Assembly (NCBI GenBank): GCA_001281695.1
Contig: LJIE01000001.1
Location: forward strand, 3,743,521-3,807,520
From: a bacterium 336/3
Lineage (GTDB): Bacteria; Bacteroidota; Bacteroidia; Cytophagales; Thermonemataceae
DNA length: 64,000 nt
Reading direction: 5' to 3'
Under the pieces are notes generated by a model. That model had not been told where the DNA came from. It was given only the letters and a program-made list of their open reading frames with translations, and ran no database searches. The translations under genes and the position numbers were made by a program. Shown here piece after piece: positions 32,445 to 43,627 of this stretch (the first letter of the stretch is position 1; each line of letters begins with the position of its first letter).

Positions 32445-33140
32445 CTAAAAATACTCTATAATTTGTTTAATGGGCATGATTGAAGCTAGAAAGTAGCCTA
32501 TCATAAAACCTAAAAATAAAATCACTACGGTTACATTTTTGAACTTTTTGTTTGGTTTTGTTTTTTGCAGATTTTGAGTAACCTTATTGAGTTTGTTTAG
32601 TTTATCATTGAAATCTCCTTTCAGTGTATTTCGGTATTCATTTAAAGCTGATATACTCTCATTCAAATTTTCTGGCAATGCTTCTTCCAAATACTCTCTC
32701 ATTCGGCGTGCAAGTACAGGGGATTTTCCATTGGTTGAAATTGCAATTTTCAGGTTTCCTTTCTTGACAATAGAACCTAAATAAAAGTCGCATAATTCGG
32801 GTTGGTCAGCAGCATTGACAAGAATATTTCTCAGATTTGCCAAATATTTGATTTCAGCATTTACAGTTCTATCATTGGTAGCTGTAATCACAAAATCAAC
32901 ATTGTCCAAATCAGATTCTTCAAATCCTCTAATTTCAGTTTTTATTTGAGGGTGTTGCTCCAAAAAGTTTTTTAGCTTAGGATAAATCTCTAAAGCTACA
33001 ATCGTTAAATCTACATTTGGATTTTGCCTAATGAGTGTTTCAGCCTTTTCTAAACCCACATTACCGCCCCCTACAATTAGGAATTTAGCTTTGTCCGTTT
33101 TCAAGAAAACTGGAAATAAAGTGTTTGTTGCTTGTTCCAT
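32445..33140 (-). CDS. Siroheme synthase (precorrin-2 dehydrogenase/ferrochelatase), membrane-anchored
   Basis: A 231-residue Met8/CysG-N-type enzyme that oxidises precorrin-2 and inserts iron to make siroheme for sulfite reductase. The NAD motif FLIVGGGNVGLEKAETL, the stretch DFVITATNDRTVNAEI, the Asp-containing VNAADQPELCDFYLG and KISTNGKSPVLAR-like ISTNGKSPVLARRMREYLE are all present. Unusually it ends in a hydrophobic helix (VTVVILFLGFMIGYFLASI) that would anchor the C-terminus to the membrane. It shares its boundary base with cysI at 33140 and is the last gene of the sulfur operon. Confidence 0.88.
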   Translation of the reverse strand: MEQATNTLFPVFLKTDKAKFLIVGGGNVGLEKAETLIRQNPNVDLTIVALEIYPKLKNFLEQHPQIKTEIRGFEESDLDNVDFVITATNDRTVNAEIKYLANLRNILVNAADQPELCDFYLGSIVKKGNLKIAISTNGKSPVLARRMREYLEEALPENLNESISALNEYRNTLKGDFNDKLNKLNKVTQNLQKTKPNKKFKNVTVVILFLGFMIGYFLASIMPIKQIIEYF

Positions 33141-34783
33141 TACTGAAAAAATTTACGATGTGTAAAATCTCCAAAAGTTTCATTTTGAGCCTTTTCTGTA
33201 TTATAAAGCTCAAAAAGCATATCTAATTCATTCAAAATCTCTTCTTCAGAAAGCTTTTCTTTGAAAAGCTTATTCAAACGAACTCCAAACCTATCTCCGC
33301 CCAGCATCAAATTGTATTGCTGTGGGGCTGTGCCAATTAAACCAATTTCCGAAACATACGGACGACCACAACCGTTAGGGCATCCTGTCATCCGAATGGT
33401 GATGTCTTCAGTGGTTAAATGATGTTTTAGTAAAAGAGGCTCAATTTTAGAAACCAATATTGGCAAATAACGTTGAGCTTCTGCCAAAGCCAGTGGGCAG
33501 GTGGGCAAAGCCACACAAGCCATAGAGCTTTTTCGCATTCCACTGGTTTGTATATCAATCTGATGCGTTTCAATTAATTGTTCAATCAGATATTTATTCT
33601 TTTCCTCTATTTCACCCAAAATCAGATTCTGATTTCCTGTGAAAATCACATTTGAGACATTCAAGTCTGCAACTTCCCACAAAAATGCTTTTTGATGAGG
33701 GTTGATAACGCCATGTTCTACAAAAAGAGTATAAAACCATTTTCCTTCATGGTTTTGTTGCCAACCATATCGGTCATTTCTTTCTATAAACTCAAATTCT
33801 TGGGCTGGTTCTAAAGAAAAACCTATTCTTTTCTCTAATTCATTTTTAAACTCTTCTACTCCCATTTTATCTACAGTATATTTCAAACGGGAGAGTTTTC
33901 TGTCACTTCTATTTCCAAAATCTCTTTGAATGGTTAGTACCTCATAAACAGCTTTTAAGGTTTTTTCTTCTGTATCTGTAAAACCTATGACTGTTCCCAA
34001 ACGTGGATAAGTCTGCAAGTTTCCATGTGTAGCAGATAAACTACCTCCTACGGCAATATTAAAGCCTTTCAGTTCATTATCTTTGATAATGGCTATGAGT
34101 CCAATATCATTAGCAAATACATCCACATCGTTGCTGGGAGGAATTGCAATGGCTATTTTGAATTTTCTAGGCAAATAACGGTCTTCGTATAGTGGGTCAG
34201 CCTCTACTGAACGTTCATAAATTTTTTCATCATCAATAAAAATTTCGTAATAGGCTTGCGTTTTGGGGAGTAAAAGATTCGATATTTTATCTGCATAAGC
34301 ATGAATTTGCTGATGGATAGGCGATATTTGAGGGTGTGCTGTAACAATCACATTACGGTTCACATCTCCACAGGCAGCTATCGAATCTAATTTTGCCAAA
34401 TTAAAGGTTTGAATTGTAGGGCGTATCTGATGTTTGAGAAGCCCATGTAACTGTACTGTTTGTCTTGTGGTTATTTTGATAGTGCCTGTTCCATATTGCT
34501 CAGATACTTCGTGTATGGTTTTCCACTGGTCTGATGTAATTACACCACCTGGGATTCTCAGGCGTATCATGAAGGAATAGAGTTTGTCCAGTTTTTTCAA
34601 AGCTCTTTCCTCTCTACGGTCTCTGTCGTCTTGTACATACATACCATGAAATTTCACAAGAACGGTATCATCCGAACGCAAATTTCCTGTATAGGTATCC
34701 AATTCAATACTCTCTTTTAGTGTGCCTCTCAGACCATTACTATTGGTTTTAATGGTTTCTACAGGCGATAATTTTTCACTCAT
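33140..34783 (-). CDS. cysI: NADPH-dependent sulfite reductase haemoprotein
   Basis: A 547-residue sulfite reductase beta subunit that reduces sulfite to sulfide with a siroheme and a 4Fe-4S cluster. The cluster cysteines are in ACVALPTCPLALAEAQ and MTGCPNGCGRPYVSEIG, and the siroheme-anion Arg/Lys segments include TTRQTVQLHGLLK and NRNVIVTAHP. The ATG at 34783 begins the conserved SEKLSPVETIK; a longer start at 34834 is less likely and would overlap cysJ. It partners with CysJ, encoded 19 bases upstream. Confidence 0.95.
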   Translation of the reverse strand: MSEKLSPVETIKTNSNGLRGTLKESIELDTYTGNLRSDDTVLVKFHGMYVQDDRDRREERALKKLDKLYSFMIRLRIPGGVITSDQWKTIHEVSEQYGTGTIKITTRQTVQLHGLLKHQIRPTIQTFNLAKLDSIAACGDVNRNVIVTAHPQISPIHQQIHAYADKISNLLLPKTQAYYEIFIDDEKIYERSVEADPLYEDRYLPRKFKIAIAIPPSNDVDVFANDIGLIAIIKDNELKGFNIAVGGSLSATHGNLQTYPRLGTVIGFTDTEEKTLKAVYEVLTIQRDFGNRSDRKLSRLKYTVDKMGVEEFKNELEKRIGFSLEPAQEFEFIERNDRYGWQQNHEGKWFYTLFVEHGVINPHQKAFLWEVADLNVSNVIFTGNQNLILGEIEEKNKYLIEQLIETHQIDIQTSGMRKSSMACVALPTCPLALAEAQRYLPILVSKIEPLLLKHHLTTEDITIRMTGCPNGCGRPYVSEIGLIGTAPQQYNLMLGGDRFGVRLNKLFKEKLSEEEILNELDMLFELYNTEKAQNETFGDFTHRKFFQ

Positions 34784-34802
34784 AGCTGTAATTTTTAATG
34801 TT

Positions 34803-36488
34803 TTAGTAAACGTCTTTTTGATATTTTCCTGCAAGTTCCAGACCTTCCAAAACTTCTTTAGCTTGCTCCAAACTGATTTTTCTTTCTTGAGCTATTACAT
34901 CCAAAATGGTATTTTCCACATCTTCACTCATAGGGTATTTCTGACCACAGATATATAAATTTGCTCCATTTTCTAGCCAAGCATTAAATTCTTTAGCCTT
35001 TTGTCTGATACGGTCTTGAACATAAATTTTTTGTGCTTGATCTCTTGAAAAAGCCACATCCAAATTGGTAAGTAATCCACTACCAAACCACTCCTGAATT
35101 TCCGTTTGGTAATAAAAATCTGATACAAAATGTTGTTCGCCAAAGAAAAGCCAGTTTTTGCCCTCTGCTCCCCTATGATTCCGTTCGGCTAAAAAACTTC
35201 TGAATGGAGCTATACCTGTTCCTGGTCCTATCATAATGATGTCTGTTTCATCGGAAGGCAATCTGAAATTAGAATTTTTATGAATGTAAAACTCTATAGA
35301 TGAGTTATTTGGATAATCCGCTAAAAACTGAGATGCCAAGCCTGTTTTTAGCGTGTTGTTTACAGAAAACTTATTTAAACCTACAGTTAAGTGAATTTGC
35401 CCTTCATGGGCATCTTTTGAAGAAGCAATAGAATACAAACGGGGTGCAATGGGGTGTAGAATATCAATTAAATCCTCTATTTTGATAGTTTTAGAAATAT
35501 TATATTGCTCAAAAATATCCAGCAGGTCTATTTTTTCAGTTTTTATCTCTACACCTAAAACCTTTTCTAGTTTTTCAATAATATTTCTTCCTAAACCTCT
35601 GATATTCTGCTTATAGAGCCATGATTCTACTGTTTTGGTCTCTCCTTTTACAAGAATTTCTGTGTGAAGACTCACTTGAAAATACTCTACCAGACGTTCT
35701 ATATCCTCTTTTTTGTTATGGGGTATCACGCCCAAAGCATCACCAGATTCATAAAAAACTTCTTCGTGGGGAGTTATTTCAATATGATAGGTTTCTTTAT
35801 TTGAACCTCTATCATTTAAAACAATTTTGTGTACTATTTCGCCTGTATAGTTTTTCTTCTTTACAGATTTACTAACAATTTGTGTTGTTGATAAAAGATT
35901 TTTAGTCGTATTTCTGAAATTTTCCTGCAAATCCTGTTCCCAAGCCTTTACTGCTTCCTGATAATCTACATCAGCTTTTACCAAAGGCAATAACCTTGTT
36001 GCATTTTTTTCTTCAAAAACCTGATCCAGAAGTATTCCTGCATTACAAAATAATGGATATGCAGAGTCTCCCAAGCCCAAAACAGAATACTTTAAATGGG
36101 ATAGATTTTGGGCTGAGTTTTTAAGTTCATTATAAAATTTTTGAGCATTCTGTGGAAACTCTCCATCACCTTGTGTACTTACTACAAATAAAACATCTGT
36201 TTCTTTGCTTAGTTTTTCAAAATCGTACTGAAAAACATCTGCAATTTTAGCCTGTATTTTATTTTTTTTGAAAGAAGCAAGCAATTGAGTAGCTACTTTT
36301 TTGGCATTACCTGTCTCTGTTCCATAAAGAATTAAAGGCTTTCTGGTAACTTCTTGTATATTTTCTTGGGCTTGTACTTGGTGATTTCTTGCCAAACCTG
36401 CCAAATAGCCATTCAACCAAATGAGTTCTTCTTTGGGAGCATCTTGAATGAGTTGCTCTAACAATAAAAGTTTATTTTCAGACAGCAT
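34803..36488 (-). CDS. cysJ: NADPH-sulfite reductase flavoprotein
   Basis: A 561-residue flavoprotein. The N-terminal flavodoxin domain has LYGTETGNAKKVATQLL and STQGDGEFPQNA; the FAD domain has PRLYSIASS; the NADP domain has MIGPGTGIAPFRSFLAER and ends AGKYQKDVY, the typical CysJ C-terminus. It passes electrons from NADPH to CysI. The ATG at 36488 begins MLSENKLLLLEQL; its upstream overlap with the cobA gene is 11 bases, indicating translational coupling. Confidence 0.95.
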   Translation of the reverse strand: MLSENKLLLLEQLIQDAPKEELIWLNGYLAGLARNHQVQAQENIQEVTRKPLILYGTETGNAKKVATQLLASFKKNKIQAKIADVFQYDFEKLSKETDVLFVVSTQGDGEFPQNAQKFYNELKNSAQNLSHLKYSVLGLGDSAYPLFCNAGILLDQVFEEKNATRLLPLVKADVDYQEAVKAWEQDLQENFRNTTKNLLSTTQIVSKSVKKKNYTGEIVHKIVLNDRGSNKETYHIEITPHEEVFYESGDALGVIPHNKKEDIERLVEYFQVSLHTEILVKGETKTVESWLYKQNIRGLGRNIIEKLEKVLGVEIKTEKIDLLDIFEQYNISKTIKIEDLIDILHPIAPRLYSIASSKDAHEGQIHLTVGLNKFSVNNTLKTGLASQFLADYPNNSSIEFYIHKNSNFRLPSDETDIIMIGPGTGIAPFRSFLAERNHRGAEGKNWLFFGEQHFVSDFYYQTEIQEWFGSGLLTNLDVAFSRDQAQKIYVQDRIRQKAKEFNAWLENGANLYICGQKYPMSEDVENTILDVIAQERKISLEQAKEVLEGLELAGKYQKDVY

Positions 36489-37293
36489 ATTGTAAAAGCG
36501 TTTTGTGATTATCAAAGTAAGATTCTATTTCCAGTTGCTCTTCAATCCATTTATATTGATGGTGGAGGTTCACTACTTTTCCTACAATAATAAGTGTCGG
36601 AACATGCTCAAATTCAGGAAGATTAGAAACATCTATATCTGCAAATGAAAACACTTGTGTTTTCTGATAAGGAGTTGTCGCCTGCTGAATTACTGCCAAA
36701 CTTTTAGACTCCTCAATACCTCTGAATACAAGATTTTTAGCCAGTGTATCTGTCTGCTGACCACTCATGTAAAATACAAGTGTATCGTCAGTAGTAGCCC
36801 AATCATTCCATTGATGGTTGGTAATACTTTTTAAATCGTATAATGTAAGAAAACGAACCCCTCTCGAATGCCCTCGAGCTGTCAGGGGGATACCTGTATA
36901 GGCAGCAGCCCCCAAAGCAGCCGAAACACCTGGGATAATCTCATAAGAAATATGATAATTTTTAAGTGTTTCCAATTCGTCTAAAATATTAGAAAACAAA
37001 CTCGCATCCCCTCCTTTGAGTCTTAAAACTAATTTCCCCATTTGGGCAAGTTCCACCATCAAAGCATTGATTTCTTTTTGAGAGGTGTAAATACCTCTAG
37101 AACATTGTTTGCCTACATAAATCACTTCTGCTTCCTCATCTGCATATTTTTCTATGAGTTCAGGGGAAACCAATCTATCTGTTAAAATTACATCTGCCTT
37201 CTGTAAAACTTTGAGAGCCTTTAATGTAATTAGTTCGGGGTCGCCAGAGCCAGCTCCTGCCAAAACCACATGACCATATATTCTTTTCATCAT
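36478..37293 (-). CDS. cobA: Uroporphyrinogen-III C-methyltransferase
   Basis: A 271-residue SUMT. Family motifs are VVLAGAGSGDPELITLKAL, DVILTDRLVSPEL, LRLKGGDASLFS, the VSAALGAAAYTGIPLT segment with TARGHSRG, and YMSGQQ. It methylates uroporphyrinogen III twice to precorrin-2, which feeds the siroheme synthase at the end of the operon. The gene overlaps cysJ by 11 bases and follows cysK by 16 bases. Confidence 0.93.
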   Translation of the reverse strand: MMKRIYGHVVLAGAGSGDPELITLKALKVLQKADVILTDRLVSPELIEKYADEEAEVIYVGKQCSRGIYTSQKEINALMVELAQMGKLVLRLKGGDASLFSNILDELETLKNYHISYEIIPGVSAALGAAAYTGIPLTARGHSRGVRFLTLYDLKSITNHQWNDWATTDDTLVFYMSGQQTDTLAKNLVFRGIEESKSLAVIQQATTPYQKTQVFSFADIDVSNLPEFEHVPTLIIVGKVVNLHHQYKWIEEQLEIESYFDNHKTLLQYAV

Positions 37294-37309
37294 ATCACAC
37301 TTTTAGGGT

Positions 37310-38221
37310 TTAAAATAATCCATCTACTGACAAATACCTTTCACCAGTATCATAATTGAATGTAAGAATCTGAGCATTATCAGGAATACCCTCTATTTTT
37401 TTTGCAACAGCAGCCAATGATGCTCCTGTTGAAATACCTACCAAAATGCCCTCTTGACTGGCAATGGCTTTGGTATATTTGAAAGCATCTTCTTTACTTA
37501 CCTGAACAACCTCATCTATCCATTCACTATGATAATTTTTTGGAATAAAACCTGCTCCAATTCCTTGTATAGGATGTGGACTTGGCGAACCTCCACTTAA
37601 AACAGGAGATAATTCGGGTTCAACGGCAAAAACTTTAAGATTTGGAAATTTACTTTTGAGAATAGCTGCCACACCCGAAATATGCCCACCTGTACCAACA
37701 CCTGTTATCAGATAATCCAGCCCGTTTGGAAAATCTTCTAAAATTTCCTGAGCAGTTGTTGTTTTATGAATTTCCACATTGGCAGGATTTTCAAATTGTT
37801 GTGGAGACCACGAATTAGGGATTTCTTGTAACATTTGTGCTACTCTTTCAATAGCACCTTTCATTCCTTTTTCACGAGGTGTAAGCTCAAAGGTAGCTCC
37901 ATAGATTTCCATCAGTTTTCTGCGTTCTATACTCATGGATTCGGGCATTACCAAAATCACTTTATAGCCTTTTACAGCAGCTACCAAAGAAAGTCCGATA
38001 CCTGTATTGCCAGATGTAGGTTCAATAATTACATGATTGGGCGTTAAGATTCCTCTTTTTTCGGCATCTTCAATCATAGCAAGAGCAATACGATCTTTGA
38101 TGCTATTACCTGGGTTATTGCGTTCGAGCTTAATCCAGACATTTTTATTCTCGCCATATACTTTATTGATTTTCACAACAGGTGTTTTTCCAATGGTTTC
38201 AAGAATGGTTTGTACTTTCAT
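37310..38221 (-). CDS. cysK: Cysteine synthase A
   Basis: A 303-residue O-acetylserine sulfhydrylase. The PLP Lys is Lys42 in [15 protein letters not shown]; the phosphate loop [17 protein letters not shown] and the [16 protein letters not shown] loop are intact, and the substrate loop [11 protein letters not shown] follows. It makes cysteine from O-acetylserine and sulfide, the last step of the pathway encoded by this operon. It is next to serine acetyltransferase, its usual complex partner. Confidence 0.95.
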
Positions 38222-38252
38222 GTTTTTTAGCTTTTAGGTTGAAAATTTTATA

Positions 38253-39089
38253 TTAAATAGAAAAATTAAGTGCTTCAGGAAATACTTCTTTGGTTTTTAC
38301 AATGATCTCACTTTTATGATAAACAAGGGAATAAGAAGGAATAGAGGCTGTTATCCAAACATTACCTCCTATGATGCTATCATGCCCGATAACTGTTCCT
38401 CCGCCTAATATGGTAGCATTGGCATAGATAATTACGTTGTCTTGGATGGTAGGGTGTCGTTTCTGATTCTGTTTTTCTTTACTTACACTCAAAGCTCCTA
38501 GTGTTACACCCTGATAAATTTTTACGTTATTGCCAATTGTAGCCGTTTCGCCTATTACAATGCCTGTTCCATGATCTATGAAAAACTTTTTTCCAATTTC
38601 AGCAGCAGGATGAATATCTATGCCTGTTTTGCTGTGAGCATATTCTGAAAGTAAACGAGCTAGAATAAAGGCATTATTTTGCCAAATAAGATGTGTAATA
38701 CGATAAACTGCTATTGCAAAAAAACCAGGGTAAGCCAGAACCACCTCTCCTTTCAATTTAGCAGCAGGGTCAAACTCTAAAATAACCTGTAAATCTTCTA
38801 ATAACTGATTGTAAATATTTAGAATTTCCTCAAAAAATGATTTTACTATCAAATCGATGTTTTCTCTATCCGATAATTCTATTTTTAAAAAGCTTTGTAG
38901 TTCTATTTCTAGTTCTTTTGCTTTACTTTCAAAATATCCAAAGTTTTGATAATCGTTTTGAGTTATAAAAAGCCAGCTAAATAAGTTTTCTATCCAGTTT
39001 TCTACCTGTTTCTTATGAAAAGCTGGTGTGGATAGCCCTAATTTTGCCTGATGTAATAATTGTAATGTGGATGTCAGTGAGGTTGTCAT
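38253..39089 (-). CDS. cysE: Serine O-acetyltransferase
   Basis: A 278-residue serine acetyltransferase. The helical N-terminal half contains DPAAKLKGEVVLAYPGFFAI and AVYRITHLIW; the C-terminal half is a left-handed beta helix with IDIHPAAEIGKKFFIDHGTG, VIGETATIGNNVKIYQGVTL and DNVIIYANATILGGGTVIG. The DH and H residues in these segments are the catalytic pair. It makes O-acetylserine for CysK, whose gene follows after 31 bases. Confidence 0.93.
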   Translation of the reverse strand: MTTSLTSTLQLLHQAKLGLSTPAFHKKQVENWIENLFSWLFITQNDYQNFGYFESKAKELEIELQSFLKIELSDRENIDLIVKSFFEEILNIYNQLLEDLQVILEFDPAAKLKGEVVLAYPGFFAIAVYRITHLIWQNNAFILARLLSEYAHSKTGIDIHPAAEIGKKFFIDHGTGIVIGETATIGNNVKIYQGVTLGALSVSKEKQNQKRHPTIQDNVIIYANATILGGGTVIGHDSIIGGNVWITASIPSYSLVYHKSEIIVKTKEVFPEALNFSI

Positions 39090-39158
39090 AAGTGAGTGGT
39101 TGATGGGAGTTTTTTCTGAAGTTATTTATATGTGATTTATTTTATATAACCATCTTAA

Positions 39159-39794
39159 TTATTTAATGAAAATATATCCCCCCTTTGTTGCTCCCCATAC
39201 TTGTTTCCCTGATGCATCAAAACCCTGATCCCAAGAACGAAGCTCACCTTCTTTGAGTGTTATTTGAGTGGTAGTATATTTAGCACCACGTAAATCAGAA
39301 GGGCATTTACTTCCATCTGTTCCTCCTTTGTAAATACCACCTTCATGGATTAGAGTCACTGTGCAACCTTCCTTCAATTCTATTTTGTCAAAAGTTAATT
39401 GATTCATTTTATTTTGATCATCTTGCAAACCAGCTAAAGAAAGAGCATCTTTAATAGTGTATATATCACTTGTGAAGGTATTTTTAGATGTTTGCTGTAA
39501 ATGATACACTCGTTGACGATAAGGCTGATTTAATTTGGATGCTGTTGCCTGTTCGACATATAGCCATTTCCCATCTGTTCTCTCTTTCCAAATGGGTACC
39601 ATCACCAGACTGATATGAAAATAGTTGGTATCAGATTTAGCCTGTAACTCACTTGAAAATTTACCTGTCATCAGTGATACAAGTTTATCTAACTCCTGAT
39701 GATTTGCTCTATGATTTTTTCCTTTTTGAAGTCCTCTGCATCCTATTATTGATATTAGGATAAGTAAAATGAAAACTGATTTTGCTATGTTCAT
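39159..39794 (-). CDS. CpeT/CpcT-family lipoprotein
   Basis: A 211-residue lipoprotein (IIGCRG lipobox) whose body matches the CpeT/CpcT (phycocyanobilin chromophore lyase) family: SLMTGKFSSELQAKSD, KWLYVEQATASKLNQPYRQR, IYTIKDALSLAGLQDD and EGGIYKGGTDGSKCPSDLRG. The organism shows no sign of phycobiliproteins, so the name describes only the fold; it may bind another hydrophobic or tetrapyrrole ligand. It sits between the barrel protein and cysE in the sulfur operon. Confidence 0.75.
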   Translation of the reverse strand: MNIAKSVFILLILISIIGCRGLQKGKNHRANHQELDKLVSLMTGKFSSELQAKSDTNYFHISLVMVPIWKERTDGKWLYVEQATASKLNQPYRQRVYHLQQTSKNTFTSDIYTIKDALSLAGLQDDQNKMNQLTFDKIELKEGCTVTLIHEGGIYKGGTDGSKCPSDLRGAKYTTTQITLKEGELRSWDQGFDASGKQVWGATKGGYIFIK

Positions 39795-39857
39795 AAATAT
39801 TAAAAAATATGGATGTTTATATTATCAAAAGAGAAGTTTTTATCTTCTGATACTTTT

Positions 39858-40232
39858 TTACTTTTTATGAAACTTGTACCCCATTCCTACTGACCATATC
39901 CATTCATTTGTAGAGTCTCTGTGGTAAAAAGGTGCTATTAGAACAATATCTTTATAGTCTATTCTTGGAGAAACCCCTAGTCTTGCACCTGTTTTACCAT
40001 TTAGAATGTAAAAGGAAGGAAAAGCTCCTACACCTATTTTAAAGTTTTTATGTAGTCTGAGCATCAAACTGGGTCCTCCAACATTGAATGCATAAAAGTT
40101 ATTGCCTACAGAAACACCTATCATCCCCTCTAAACCTATGTCAAATTTTTGGTGATGCTCCTCTGTGTTTTGAGCCCACGAAGTACTCCCATACAGGATT
40201 AGTACAATGATTAAATATTTTAGTTTTTTCAT
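39858..40232 (-). CDS. Small outer-membrane-like protein
   Basis: A 124-residue exported protein (signal peptide ending SWAQN). It is Gly- and aromatic-rich (GLEGMIGVSVGNNFYAFNVG, PRIDYKDIVLIAPFYH) and ends in GMGYKFHKK, typical of a short barrel or barrel-associated protein. No family name is known to me. It follows the TonB-dependent receptor gene by 12 bases; this adjacency suggests a receptor accessory protein. Confidence 0.6.
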   Translation of the reverse strand: MKKLKYLIIVLILYGSTSWAQNTEEHHQKFDIGLEGMIGVSVGNNFYAFNVGGPSLMLRLHKNFKIGVGAFPSFYILNGKTGARLGVSPRIDYKDIVLIAPFYHRDSTNEWIWSVGMGYKFHKK

Positions 40233-40244
40233 TGTCAATAAAGC

Positions 40245-42794
40245 TTAGAATGAATTTCTAATGGTAATACCATAGGTTCTTGGGTCTCCCAATACTCCAG
40301 CATAATGTCCTGCATTTCCTGCTGCTGGCAATAGTTGTTCAAAGTAGTTTTGATTCAAAATATTTCTGCCCCATAGAAAAATAGATAATCCATTGGATAC
40401 TCTGAATCCTATTCTGCTATTAAGAATACCATAATCACTAACATTAAGGTATTTGGAAGGAGAAGGGCTGGAAGAAAAACCTGAACGATAAGAACCCTCC
40501 AAAGCCCAGAAAAACTTACCATTTTTACCTAATAATTTTCCTGATTGTGTAATTTCACCCCCAAAAGAAGTTGCCCATTTAGAAATTCCTGGTAAAAGTC
40601 CTCCTGAAATATCTTTAAATGCTGTTTGTCCACCTGTTTCTTCTAAAGGCACTGGAGCATTTTTGAATGATACATACGTTCCGTTAGTGTAAGCCAAAGA
40701 ACCATATACAGAAATAAAGCGATTCACTTTCAGATTCCCATCTACTTCTATTCCAAAAACCCTTACTTTTTCAGCATTGGCAAGATAACCTCTGTTTACC
40801 CCAATTTCAGCAGTTTGTACTTGTGTCTGATAATCTTTGATTTCTGTATTATAGATGGTTACATTCAGTGTAGATTGTGAAGTAGGATTTGTTTTAATTC
40901 CCAATTCGTAATGATTGACATATTCAGGTTTGATACGAGCCAGTTCTGTTAGTACCTCTCCATTGGCTGTGGGCAATCCCCCTAAATTGATTCCAATAGG
41001 TTTGTAACCCACAGAATAAGTAGCAAATGTGTTGATATCTTGATGAGGTCTCCAAGCTAGTGTAATTTGACCTGAAAAATTATTATTATCTACTTTGGCA
41101 TTGAAAGTCTGATTGGTATAAACAGCATTCTTGAGAGCTATCAAAGCAGGGTCTGTTGTTTCTAAACCTCCATATGTCTGACGGTCAAAATTGACTGTTT
41201 TTTGGTCATAATTATAACGTAAACCAGCCAGTAAATGAAGTTTTTTAGTGATAGCCCAATCAGCCTGTCCAAAAACTGCTCCACTAAAGGATTTGAGACT
41301 GGAACGAGTACGAATGCCATACCCCTCCAACAAGCCAGGGGTTTTCCAGAGGTTACTGGTAGAACTTTGTGAAAATCTCCATTGAGCAGAACCTGACTCT
41401 TCTGTATGATAAGGTGATGCCCACAAACCCTGTGAAATAGCATAAACACCCACTACACCCGTAACTTTTGAAAATAGTTCACCTGCATAACGAATCTCCT
41501 GAGACCACTGTTCATGTTTGGAAGGAGCTTGTGAAAGTGTTAAAACAGGTAATGCTGTAAAATCTCTGTCATTAGAAGGATTCCAGTTCCAATATCTCCA
41601 TGCAGTTGTGGATGTGAGTGTTCCCTTACCTATTTTGGCATCTATGTTCAAGGAAACTCCACCTAAATCATTATTTGATCTCCAAGTAGTATTATGGTCA
41701 ACCAAACGATCAAAAGGATTGGTACTGGGAAGTTGATATTCTAAATCTGCAATAATCTGATTAAATTGTCTGTAAGCAGGTCTTAAAGTAGGTGCTACTC
41801 CTGCTATTACCTGAGCATATCCTTCTGGACGTTGGCTTGAGGCATCTGCTGATAGTGTAATTTCAACGTTATGGGTGGGCAGATATAATAACTGACCTCT
41901 CAAACCTACATTATTTAAGTTATTAATATATTTTTGAGTTGTAACATTGTAAATCAGTCCATCTCTTTGTGTACCTGAAAAACCTAACCTTCCTGCCAGT
42001 TTTTTACTCAAAGCACCTGTTACAGAAGATTTTGCCTGAATATAATTGTAATTACCATAACTTACTTCAAAATTTACATTGGGTTTAAAACTGGGTGCTT
42101 TCGTTTTAATATTAAATGTACCTGCTGTAGTATTCTTGCCAAATAAAGTTCCTTGCGGACCTCTCAAAACTTCAATTTGTTCAATATCAATAAAATCGAG
42201 AGCTGTGGCAGCAGGACGAGCATAATACACCCCATCCACATAAAATCCAACACCAGGGTCTATGCCATCATTGGTAAGCCCAAAAGTAGAACCTAAACCT
42301 CTGATATTGAGTGTTGTATTTCTTGGATTAGAAGAGTATAATTGAACAGTGGGTATGAGTTCTTTTACTCGATTCACATTGAAAGCTCCAGCGTCTTCTA
42401 CTTGTGTACCACTGACTACTGAAATAGGGATGGGTATTTCTTGTAAAATCTCTTTACGTCTTCTAGATGTAACAACTACCTCATCTATGACGTTGTCTTC
42501 TTTCAAAATTAAGTTAAAATCCTGTCCCTCAAATTTTTCTATGGATATTTCTTGAGACTCATAACCTACAAAACTTACCTCTAGTACAAATGAGTTTAAA
42601 GGAACTTCTATTTGAAAAAAACCTGTAGAATCTGTAACGGCATAAGCCTTGTTTATTTTAATACTGACAGAAGCCCCTGCAATGGCAATGCCTTTTTCAT
42701 CTTTAATGACACCTTTCAGGTAATTTTGACCTACTGTATGATGCCCCCATACAAAGAGTCCTAGAAATAATACGAGTTTAAAAATCTTGTTCAT
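40245..42794 (-). CDS. TonB-dependent receptor in the sulfur operon
   Basis: An 849-residue outer-membrane receptor. After the signal peptide come a carboxypeptidase-like regulatory domain (GVIKDEKGIAIAGASVSI...), the plug with the TonB box-like EVVVTSRRRKEILQEIP and NIRGLGSTFGLTNDGIDPGV, VLRGPQGTLFGKNTTAGTF, and a 22-strand barrel ending GDPRTYGITIRNSF. It probably imports an organic sulfur compound or a sulfur-related metabolite (inference from the cysteine and siroheme genes cotranscribed after it). It is preceded by two cysteine-rich leader-peptide and terminator modules. Confidence 0.9.
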   Translation of the reverse strand: MNKIFKLVLFLGLFVWGHHTVGQNYLKGVIKDEKGIAIAGASVSIKINKAYAVTDSTGFFQIEVPLNSFVLEVSFVGYESQEISIEKFEGQDFNLILKEDNVIDEVVVTSRRRKEILQEIPIPISVVSGTQVEDAGAFNVNRVKELIPTVQLYSSNPRNTTLNIRGLGSTFGLTNDGIDPGVGFYVDGVYYARPAATALDFIDIEQIEVLRGPQGTLFGKNTTAGTFNIKTKAPSFKPNVNFEVSYGNYNYIQAKSSVTGALSKKLAGRLGFSGTQRDGLIYNVTTQKYINNLNNVGLRGQLLYLPTHNVEITLSADASSQRPEGYAQVIAGVAPTLRPAYRQFNQIIADLEYQLPSTNPFDRLVDHNTTWRSNNDLGGVSLNIDAKIGKGTLTSTTAWRYWNWNPSNDRDFTALPVLTLSQAPSKHEQWSQEIRYAGELFSKVTGVVGVYAISQGLWASPYHTEESGSAQWRFSQSSTSNLWKTPGLLEGYGIRTRSSLKSFSGAVFGQADWAITKKLHLLAGLRYNYDQKTVNFDRQTYGGLETTDPALIALKNAVYTNQTFNAKVDNNNFSGQITLAWRPHQDINTFATYSVGYKPIGINLGGLPTANGEVLTELARIKPEYVNHYELGIKTNPTSQSTLNVTIYNTEIKDYQTQVQTAEIGVNRGYLANAEKVRVFGIEVDGNLKVNRFISVYGSLAYTNGTYVSFKNAPVPLEETGGQTAFKDISGGLLPGISKWATSFGGEITQSGKLLGKNGKFFWALEGSYRSGFSSSPSPSKYLNVSDYGILNSRIGFRVSNGLSIFLWGRNILNQNYFEQLLPAAGNAGHYAGVLGDPRTYGITIRNSF

Positions 42795-42833
42795 GTAAGT
42801 AAAAGTTTAAAAATGGATTGAAGGATTCATCAA

Positions 42834-42866
42834 TAAAAAAAGCCCCTTGGGTTGCAAGAGGCTTTT
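42834..42866 (-). terminator. Terminator/attenuator of leader module B
   Basis: On the minus strand, stem AAAAGCCTCTTG / CAAGGGGCTTTT (one G-T pair, 5-base loop) is followed by seven T. It lies 40 bases before the TonB-dependent receptor ATG. The 5' arm segment CCTCTTGC (42861-42854) is complementary to GCAAGGGG (42918-42911) inside leader peptide B, so an alternative antiterminator pairing is possible. Confidence 0.85.
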
Positions 42867-42889
42867 GATGTTTGATATATGGTTGAATT

Positions 42890-42982
42890 TTATTCCATAG
42901 CAACATAGCACCCCTTGCGTGGTGAAAAACAACACAACATACAGGCTACAGACTTGCTATTGAATAATGAAGATGAATACAT
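42890..42982 (-). CDS. Cysteine-rich leader peptide B
   Basis: A 30-residue reading frame (ATG at 42982, TAA ending at 42890) with cysteines at positions 14, 17, 18 and 25: the core reads SVACMLCCFSPRKGC. It is followed 24 bases later by terminator B. Its Arg-Lys-Gly codons (CGC AAG GGG) overlap the antiterminator sequence. It is too short to be a conventional enzyme; the arrangement resembles the leader peptides of amino-acid-biosynthesis attenuators, or alternatively metal-responsive leader peptides. Confidence 0.55.
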   Translation of the reverse strand: MYSSSLFNSKSVACMLCCFSPRKGCYVAME

Positions 42983-43009
42983 GATTTTTAAATACAGTTT
43001 TTTATAAAA

Positions 43010-43042
43010 TAAAAAATCTCCTAATAATGATTATTAGGAGAT
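43010..43042 (-). terminator. Terminator/attenuator of leader module A
   Basis: On the minus strand, ATCTCCTAATAAT / ATTATTAGGAGAT is a perfect 13-base inverted repeat with a one-base centre, followed by a T6 run. It starts 30 bases after the stop of leader peptide A and 28 bases before the start of leader peptide B. Confidence 0.8.
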
Positions 43043-43071
43043 CTTGCTATGTAAAGAATATGATAAATGCT

Positions 43072-43146
43072 CTATACAATGGCTATTGCCTCCTCAGAAA
43101 CTGAGCAACAACACGCACAAGAAATATAGTTAGCAGAAAATTTCAT
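43072..43146 (-). CDS. Cysteine-rich leader peptide A
   Basis: A 24-residue reading frame (ATG at 43146, TAG ending at 43072) with cysteine codons 10, 12, 13 and 14, that is ISCACCCSVSEE, and no others. It starts about 20 bases after the predicted transcription start and is followed by terminator A. The GAGGAGG at 43095-43089, just past the Cys run, could pair with the CTCCT of the terminator 5' arm. This fits a Cys-responsive leader peptide. Confidence 0.55.
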   Translation of the reverse strand: MKFSANYISCACCCSVSEEAIAIV

Positions 43147-43171
43147 TTTTTTTATTTATCTTTTGATGAAG

Positions 43172-43179
43172 CAAACGTA
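43172..43179 (-). promoter_or_regulatory. -7 promoter element of the sulfur operon leader
   Basis: The minus strand reads TACGTTTG, an exact match to the Bacteroidota -7 consensus TAnnTTTG, 26 bases before the leader peptide A ATG. The -33 position holds a TTTT instead of TTTG. It would start transcription about 20 bases before the peptide, followed by an A-rich leader. Confidence 0.6.
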
Positions 43180-43273
43180 AAAAACATTTTTGAATATATA
43201 AAAGTATTTTAAGTATTTTTTTGGATTTTTATACAAATATCTGTTTTACAGACAATATTATTCATTCTAATTA

Positions 43274-43627
43274 TTAAATAATAGCATCCTCAAAGTGTTC
43301 AAGGGTATCACCAAGAATGGCAACCACGTCAAAACGAATATTACCTTGCCAAGCTGTTTCGTAGGTGTATTGTTCAGCAGTTTGGAGGAGTAGTTTCTTT
43401 TTAGAAGCAGAAATAGTTTGTTCTGGATAGCCAAATTCGTTGGAGGCTCTGAAGCGGACTTCTACAAACACTATCCAATTCTCTTTTTGAACAATCAGGT
43501 CTATTTCACCTTTTTTATATCTATAATTTTGAGCAAGCAATGTATAGCCCTTGTTTTCTAAGAAAGCAAGGGCTTTTTGTTCCTGTTCTAAGCCTTTGGC
43601 TAATGTATTTTTCTTTTGTTTTCCCAA
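43274..43627 (-). CDS. YraN-family (UPF0102) endonuclease-like protein
   Basis: A 117-residue protein of the YraN / UPF0102 family, a small restriction-endonuclease-like fold of the Holliday-junction-resolvase type. KGLEQEQKALAFLENKGY, YRYKKGEIDLIVQ with the Glu-x-Asp, and VFVEVRFRASNEFGYPEQTI carry the family pattern. The start is a TTG at 43627, two bases after the WG-repeat stop, because no in-frame ATG precedes the conserved start. Role probably in DNA repair or recombination. Confidence 0.85.
   Translation of the reverse strand: MGKQKKNTLAKGLEQEQKALAFLENKGYTLLAQNYRYKKGEIDLIVQKENWIVFVEVRFRASNEFGYPEQTISASKKKLLLQTAEQYTYETAWQGNIRFDVVAILGDTLEHFEDAII

Follow-up and report, generated by a model that had tools for sequence, protein, structure and literature searches.

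The window, as we call the whole stretch of 64,000 nucleotides analysed here, comes from a source genome of 4.7 Mb in 13 contigs and contains a string of nine genes, all on the minus strand, that begins directly downstream of a short leader region. The initial annotation had taken this string for one that makes cysteine, siroheme and sulfite reductase. The nine same-strand genes are indeed there, and the functional assignment holds for the last six of them. Ahead of these six come, in order, a TonB-dependent receptor, so that no cysteine enzyme heads the operon; a protein of 126 aa that matches no family; and a member of the CpeT family (PF06206). Through its cysE-like, cysK, cysJ, cysI and siroheme genes the operon encodes synthesis of cysteine, the amino acid whose codons cluster in the leaders. 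The CpeT/CpcT family is known from phycobilin attachment, and its member here (39159-39794) sits within a sulfur operon. Upstream of the leader region, the nearest gene on the minus strand belongs to the YraN family and ends at 43274. The features of the locus are as follows.

43172..43179, minus strand: TAnnTTTG -7 element TACGTTTG, likely promoter (sequence read directly)
43072..43146, minus strand: leader peptide 1 (ORF1), 24 codons, MKFSANYISCACCCSVSEEAIAIV (sequence and ORF list)
43105..43119, minus strand: Cys codons 10, 12, 13 and 14 of leader 1, C-A-C-C-C (sequence)
43093..43105, minus strand: candidate protector hairpin 1, CTCAG-TTT-CTGAG (present in the ribosome-free nascent RNA fold)
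43089..43094, minus strand: antiterminator segment 1, AGGAGG; predicted partner, the CTCCT stretch (43041-43036) of terminator 1
43013..43045, minus strand: intrinsic terminator 1, then T run (terminator scan; fold -15.9 kcal/mol)
42890..42982, minus strand: leader peptide 2 (ORF2), 30 codons, MYSSSLFNSKSVACMLCCFSPRKGCYVAME (sequence and ORF list)
42929..42943, minus strand: Cys codons 14, 17 and 18 of leader 2, C-M-L-C-C (sequence)
42910-42908, minus strand: fourth Cys codon (25) of leader 2 (sequence)
42909..42924, minus strand: candidate protector hairpin 2, CACC...GGGGTG; shares bases with antiterminator segment 2 (partial fold)
42911..42918, minus strand: antiterminator segment 2, GCAAGGGG; predicted partner, CCTCTTGC (42861-42854) of terminator 2
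42838..42866, minus strand: intrinsic terminator 2, AAAAGCCTCTTG-CAACC-CAAGGGGCTTTT, then T run (scan; fold -16.6 kcal/mol)
40245..42794, minus strand: TonB-dependent receptor, 849 aa, first gene after the leader (PF00593, PF07715)
32445..40238, minus strand: 126-aa protein, CpeT family, cysE-like, cysK, cobA, cysJ, cysI, siroheme synthase N-terminal type

The whole arrangement, running from the -7 element through frame, terminator, frame and second terminator, spans 43179-42834 on the minus strand. Its elements are found as first described, namely the promoter element, the 24-codon frame with its CACCC run, the perfect inverted repeat of 13 bases per arm that follows it (ATCTCCTAATAAT/ATTATTAGGAGAT, then a T run), the 30-codon frame with C-x-x-C-C and one more Cys, and the second strong terminator. 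The ATG of leader 1 lies 25 bases past the -7 element; the mycobacterial poly-Cys attenuator has a leaderless frame, whose ATG opens the transcript. We call this element a likely promoter on the basis of TAnnTTTG, which we take to be the Bacteroidota promoter consensus; by eye, an exact TTTG at -33 is absent from the window and present in most of the related tandem loci described below. Leader 1 has no internal Met codon; leader 2 has two, of which one is close to the end of the frame. A terminator scan of 42700-43300 on both strands returned exactly these two terminators, with an average of 0.2 in 50 shuffles, and no Rfam 15 covariance model, including that of the SAM riboswitch (RF00162), matched the window at its gathering score.

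The same arrangement occurs in another genus. In G577, a genome of the same class and another order, two Cys leaders, each with its terminator, lie upstream of cysH, and long DNA matches to this tandem were found in at least 7 of the 249 genomes of its genus (g185), that is in G577 and six more, a lower bound given that two candidates were scored per genome; the remaining g185 matches listed are short and mostly cover the two terminator regions. All seven loci (L285-L291) have two leaders (e.g., MKNQVLNMMMCMCCSETEGLYATR and MNTIIIITTLLTSAACMMMCCCMRNFARGRLLYCLK) and two terminators at a kept spacing, and by eye TAnnTTTGC stands at the same upstream position in each. Nearly all Cys codons are kept, with G1000 departing most, as Phe replaces one Cys of its leader 1 and its leader 2 has no first Cys. 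Conservation of frames, Cys codons and hairpins in related loci, the check proposed in the initial annotation, is thus observed in these seven genomes, along with conservation of the spacing and apart from the partial departure of G1000 in its Cys codons. Common to the window and the seven are TGCTCAG...TGAGG and AAGCCTCTTG...CAAGRGGCTTTTTTT, and CGCAAGRGG is found in 7 of the 8.

Covariance models of unit 1 (R1) and unit 2 (R2) were built from the seven loci with the window left out, using short calibrations that make their E-values rough. Within the 64 kb, the best match of R1 is unit 1 of the window (E 9.4e-7) and that of R2 is unit 2 (E 5.6e-7). Each model finds the other unit second (R1 at 42834-42982, E 3.5e-4; R2 at 43009-43146, 0.025). 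These second matches suggest that unit 1 and unit 2 are related to each other, and they may come from a duplication. The gene upstream, compared at the window and three of the seven related loci, varies: it is of the YraN family in the window, of one type in L285 and L286, and on the opposite strand in L289. A single conserved gene that ends in these hairpins therefore does not account for them.

Within leader 1 all gap runs of the alignment have a length of 3, and within leader 2 they have lengths of 3, 3, 3, 3 and 9, plus one of 1 near the leader end; beyond the frames their lengths are mixed. The fraction of comparisons in which codon positions 1, 2 and 3 differ is 0.11, 0.24 and 0.20 for leader 1 and 0.21, 0.18 and 0.28 for leader 2. 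As third positions are not the most variable in leader 1, its substitution pattern gives no sign of coding. In L285-L291, Met codons flank the Cys codons of both leaders (MMMCMCC, ACMMMMCC).

Folding was computed for nascent RNA ending in the terminator loop, and the edge of the ribosome footprint was placed, by assumption, 14 nt from the first base of the A-site codon. When no ribosome is present on this RNA, the segment that follows the Cys codons is held in a stem of its own; the CTCAG and TGAGG of the hairpin 1 region are invariant in the alignment of 8 sequences, and in the ribosome-free minimum-energy fold a longer stem covers the segment of hairpin 2. A ribosome placed at codons 14, 17 and 18 of leader 2 leads to predicted pairing of GCAAGGGG with CCTCTTGC (-19.7, -19.7 and -15.2 kcal/mol), and one placed at codons 12, 13 and 14 of leader 1 to pairing of AGGAGG with the terminator arm (-11.5, -11.5 and -10.0). 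In these nascent folds no AGGAGG-arm pairing appears with the ribosome at codon 10 of leader 1, and no structure forms with the ribosome at codon 25 of leader 2. In folds of the full-length RNA the terminators win in all states computed, and the switch would therefore need co-transcriptional timing.

The strength of the alternative pairing was compared with 500 shuffles per unit, with arms picked by hand and 15 of the 16 units scored (unit 2 of L291 was left out). In 13 of these 15 the pairing was equalled by at most 4 of the 500 shuffles, with counts of 0, 2, 1, 0, 0 and 0 for unit 1 and 0, 4, 0, 0, 0 and 0 for unit 2 of L285-L290, and of 1 for unit 2 of the window. The other two are unit 1 of L291, with a modest 13/500, and unit 1 of the window, for which 128/500 shuffles were equally good. 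In the window the modelled alternative pairing is thus strong for unit 2 and no better than in shuffles for unit 1, so that the overlapping terminator/antiterminator switch first proposed for both units is borne out by the switching of the nascent folds and by unit 2, but not by the duplex test of unit 1. Across the 15 scored units, again with hand-picked arms, 64-69 nt separate the terminator arm from the last Cys codon of the cluster.

Across the seven related loci, no pair of terminator 1 is broken, and a single genome accounts for two pairs in which both bases have changed, a pattern reached by 9/500 shuffles. The terminator of unit 2 is paired in 100% of cells and its antiterminator in 98.4% (8 sequences), and the antiterminator of unit 1, across the seven loci, in 87.5% of cells; no pair in any of these three has changed on both sides. 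The pairing evidence is one of conservation with little covariation. For unit 2, folding and conservation together yield an antiterminator that is predicted to exclude the terminator and to be freed by a stalled ribosome.

Among 8 genomes of the family, cysI was found at 1e-100 in the window's own alone. In the seven others, matches to the leader DNA reached about 60 bases at most; the best one (G005) proved to be a terminator that separates two convergent genes and has no Cys leader. Across 390 genomes of the order, R2 matched in 34 at 0.01, most of the matches listed covering the terminator end alone. Its best match was the unit of the window (4.1e-5), with a terminator-only match close behind at 1.5e-4. 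Of 8 loci read among the R2 matches outside the own genome, 7 have no Cys-run leader, and the eighth (L339) has a short CCxC frame that runs toward a gene on the other strand and was therefore taken as chance. A search of the own genome for runs of TGY codons gave 678 matches (318 + 360), too many for use without annotation.

Two side observations concern other loci of these relatives. At L332 (G004, same family), on the minus strand at about 1495-1690, a Leu/Ser-rich short frame, MKTVKTYSLLSLSSLLAHSKRLCMM, and a terminator-like hairpin directly precede a cluster of tRNA-Leu, tRNA-Leu, tRNA-Ser and tRNA-Ser genes, which may form an operon whose attenuation depends on how fully the tRNAs that it encodes are charged. 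At L013, L015 and L112 the TonB receptor is preceded by a gene that presumably encodes an Rrf2-like regulator, to judge by its sequence, with TA-rich palindromes near the start; some relatives may use protein control in place of leaders.

Cys-run leaders turn up repeatedly in Bacteroidota. We counted ATG frames of 6-45 codons with at least three Cys codons and a CCC, CCxC or CxCC run, no more than 600 bases upstream of the gene. TonB receptor homologues were found at 1e-150 in 109 of the 390 order genomes (own included); L008 and L164 (partial gene) were left out of the TonB sets, as were 2 of 77 cysH loci with fewer than 150 bases upstream from the cysH set. Upstream of the TonB receptors of the order, 8/108 regions carry such a frame in the forward direction versus 1/108 in reverse (20 shuffles: mean 0.15, most 2). 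For a named receptor set that overlaps the order set (80 loci, one dropped) the count is 12/79 versus 2 in reverse (shuffles: mean 0.95). In the class, the count is 15/75 versus 0/75 (shuffles: mean 0.6, most 3) for cysH regions rather than operon heads, since cysH can lie behind another gene, as in at least three of the four other g185 genomes in the class sample, at whose cysH loci no Cys leader was seen by eye directly upstream. The rule is crude: the L195 leader, which runs over the called start, escapes it, and weak cases (L258, L066 and L072 among them) are admitted. Examples come from Thermoflexibacter ruber (L171), Flavobacterium amniphilum (L177) and Flavisolibacter (L153, L175), and from Chitinophagales or other Bacteroidota MAGs (L137, L143).

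This asymmetry between forward and reverse bears on whether the frames of the window could be chance short frames before ordinary terminators that end an upstream transcript. The YraN-family gene on the same strand and the weak pairing of unit 1 would fit such an account; it is opposed by the forward excess, by the conservation of the tandem beside different upstream genes and by the matches of R1 and R2 to the window units, and we consider it very improbable.

Cys-rich nascent peptides of the CruR/CutF type bind metal such as copper, and with a TonB receptor as first gene the leader peptides of the window might be thought to bind metal and thereby control the receptor. Over the whole named loci 23 frames pass the rule, 13 of them upstream of a TonB receptor, 4 before PAPS-reductase-family/cysH genes (L149, L177, L195) or a sulfite/nitrite reductase (L171), and 6 before genes without a known sulfur role, for example those of the AhpC/TSA family or RimK-like. 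Cys-run leaders precede cysH, sulfite/nitrite reductase and an O-acetylhomoserine sulfhydrylase-type gene as well as TonB receptors, which makes control by metal binding hard to credit.

Most single leaders elsewhere have no clear intrinsic terminator. Among 35 leader-bearing rows, which are loci of 34 genomes (L037 and L171 belong to one), a terminator of at least 10 pairs follows the leader in 4, namely the window, L208, L137 and L143; at L137 and L143 this terminator is strong, and the TEA-coding bases past the Cys run resemble its 3' arm by eye. Such numbers could suggest that poly-Cys leaders act by translational or Rho-dependent control, as in mycobacteria, with intrinsic terminators secondary, and the Cys leaders described in Actinobacteria have no conserved terminators in the text available (PMC1262725). 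Since both terminators are kept in the window and its tandem relatives, with segments that mimic a terminator arm upstream of them, we regard this as improbable for the locus studied here.

Poly-Cys frames also occur together with SAM riboswitches. The own genome has six RF00162 riboswitches, and in three of them a frame ending in CCCC or CCCCC has its ATG 9-10 nt after the riboswitch.

C1:1050549-1050649 (L352): SAM riboswitch and poly-Cys frame before an NhaC-type antiporter (score below the curated cut-off)
872097-872200 (L354): SAM riboswitch and poly-Cys frame before an O-acetylhomoserine sulfhydrylase-type gene
1309653-1309756 (L355): SAM riboswitch and poly-Cys frame before cysH

These three are apparent two-signal leaders, judging from their layout, and such pairs would join two RNA mechanisms within one leader. 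A non-random set of 34 riboswitches was counted without a shuffle or reverse control; six belong to the own genome, and the other 28 are among the best-scoring in 291 order genomes. Of these 34, 10 have a Cys-run frame no more than 250 nt away, which in 9 starts 4-15 nt past the aptamer; L360, with no motif near the expected place, was left out of the count. Pairs in other genomes of the order are seen at L361, L371, L372, L374, L377, L380 and L381, the last with a longer gap between riboswitch and frame. An RF00162 riboswitch also lies upstream in 6 of the 15 leader-bearing cysH regions (L206, L211, L258, L269, L276, L279).

Stalling at Met and Cys codons together could report the supply of both sulfur amino acids, and this is consistent with the MMMCMCC and ACMMMMCC stretches of the related leaders, with some single leaders that have Met just before the Cys run, and with the three poly-Cys leaders of the own genome that follow SAM riboswitches. 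The leaders of the window are nearly free of internal Met, however, and Cys-only runs are common elsewhere, so that joint sensing of Met and Cys seems to us unlikely, if less so than the other alternatives weighed here. The initial annotation had named Cys as the codon read: the conservation of the Cys codons agrees with this, with the correction that the conserved codons include Met and that Met-tRNA, given the Met codons around the Cys codons, may also be read.

The reading we prefer, at a probability of roughly 0.8, is that two ribosome-mediated, Cys-tRNA-dependent transcription attenuators stand in series before the sulfur operon. We infer that RNA polymerase starts near 43170 and that a ribosome translates leader 1. 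With ample Cys-tRNA, this ribosome would get to the stop codon, the segment past the Cys codons would be folded into its own hairpin or covered by the ribosome, terminator 1 would form and transcription would end. With scarce Cys-tRNA, the ribosome would stall at the Cys codons, the freed AGGAGG would pair with the 5' arm of terminator 1, if unit 1 works as the nascent folds suggest, and polymerase would pass. Leader 2 and terminator 2 would then repeat the test ahead of the TonB-receptor/cysE/cysK/cobA/cysJ/cysI operon, and action in series would sharpen the response, with Met-tRNA as a possible second signal. The interpretation first given is supported overall, charged tRNA-Cys being the presumed signal, and the sequence indicates that the cell most likely gauges its supply of cysteine two times before the operon is made.

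More broadly, we lean towards the view that poly-Cys attenuation is a main and so far undescribed form of sulfur control in Bacteroidota, which would come as single leaders, as a relay about 10 nt past a SAM riboswitch, and as a mobile cassette of two serial Cys leaders, which would have passed from lineage to lineage and come to stand before different sulfur operons. If true, this would mark Cys-responsive leaders in the phylum and a cassette common to distant genomes, ahead of different genes, and the locus described here would lend itself readily to a genetic test of why one amino acid should be measured twice.

Leader-peptide attenuation in Bacteroidota was little met in the literature searched, as far as the texts available go. 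Among these texts, with subscription papers and supplements outside the scope, neither tandem Cys leaders nor Cys leaders of Bacteroidota were found described, in line with the initial annotation, which knew of no such tandem in this phylum. A 2014 study by Lyubetsky in Comput Biol Chem reportedly treats Cys-codon leaders and could hold related predictions.

Within the phylum, leader-peptide attenuation has been inferred for amino-acid operons of Flavobacterium psychrophilum (PMC9723704), and short frames have been reported in long 5' UTRs of Bacteroides thetaiotaomicron (PMC7366714); no cysteine case is named in the available text of either. Poly-Cys leaders are known from cys operons of Mycobacterium and Propionibacterium and from cbs of Bifidobacterium (Seliverstov 2005, PMC1262725), and from Canestrari 2020, as cited in PMC13236596 and PMC9094748. 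The actinobacterial leaders resemble those of the window in having a Cys-codon run within a short frame ahead of sulfur-assimilation genes, but they are single and, in the text available, come without a report of a conserved terminator (PMC1262725), whereas the window, in a member of the Bacteroidota, has two units with terminators and predicted antiterminators; where the mycobacterial attenuator has no conserved intrinsic terminator, the window has two, both kept in its relatives. The uORFC-8-2 motif before cysS of Rhodobacterales, as described in the accessible text (PMC8632094), shares adjacent Cys codons in a short frame, an intrinsic terminator and a proposed ribosome-mediated attenuation; it is, however, a single unit of alphaproteobacteria that controls cysteinyl-tRNA synthetase, while the first gene in the window encodes a TonB receptor. 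Two short frames and attenuators in series are found in mgtCBR of Salmonella, where, according to the part of the source available, two signals are read, ATP and proline (PMC3641672), unlike in the window, where both frames are Cys-coded. With the trp/his-type attenuators, finally, the window shares an intrinsic terminator between leader and first gene, an operon that makes the amino acid whose codons its leaders carry and, in unit 2, a predicted antiterminator. The proposed mechanism is a known one; its arrangement and its lineage are new among the texts searched.
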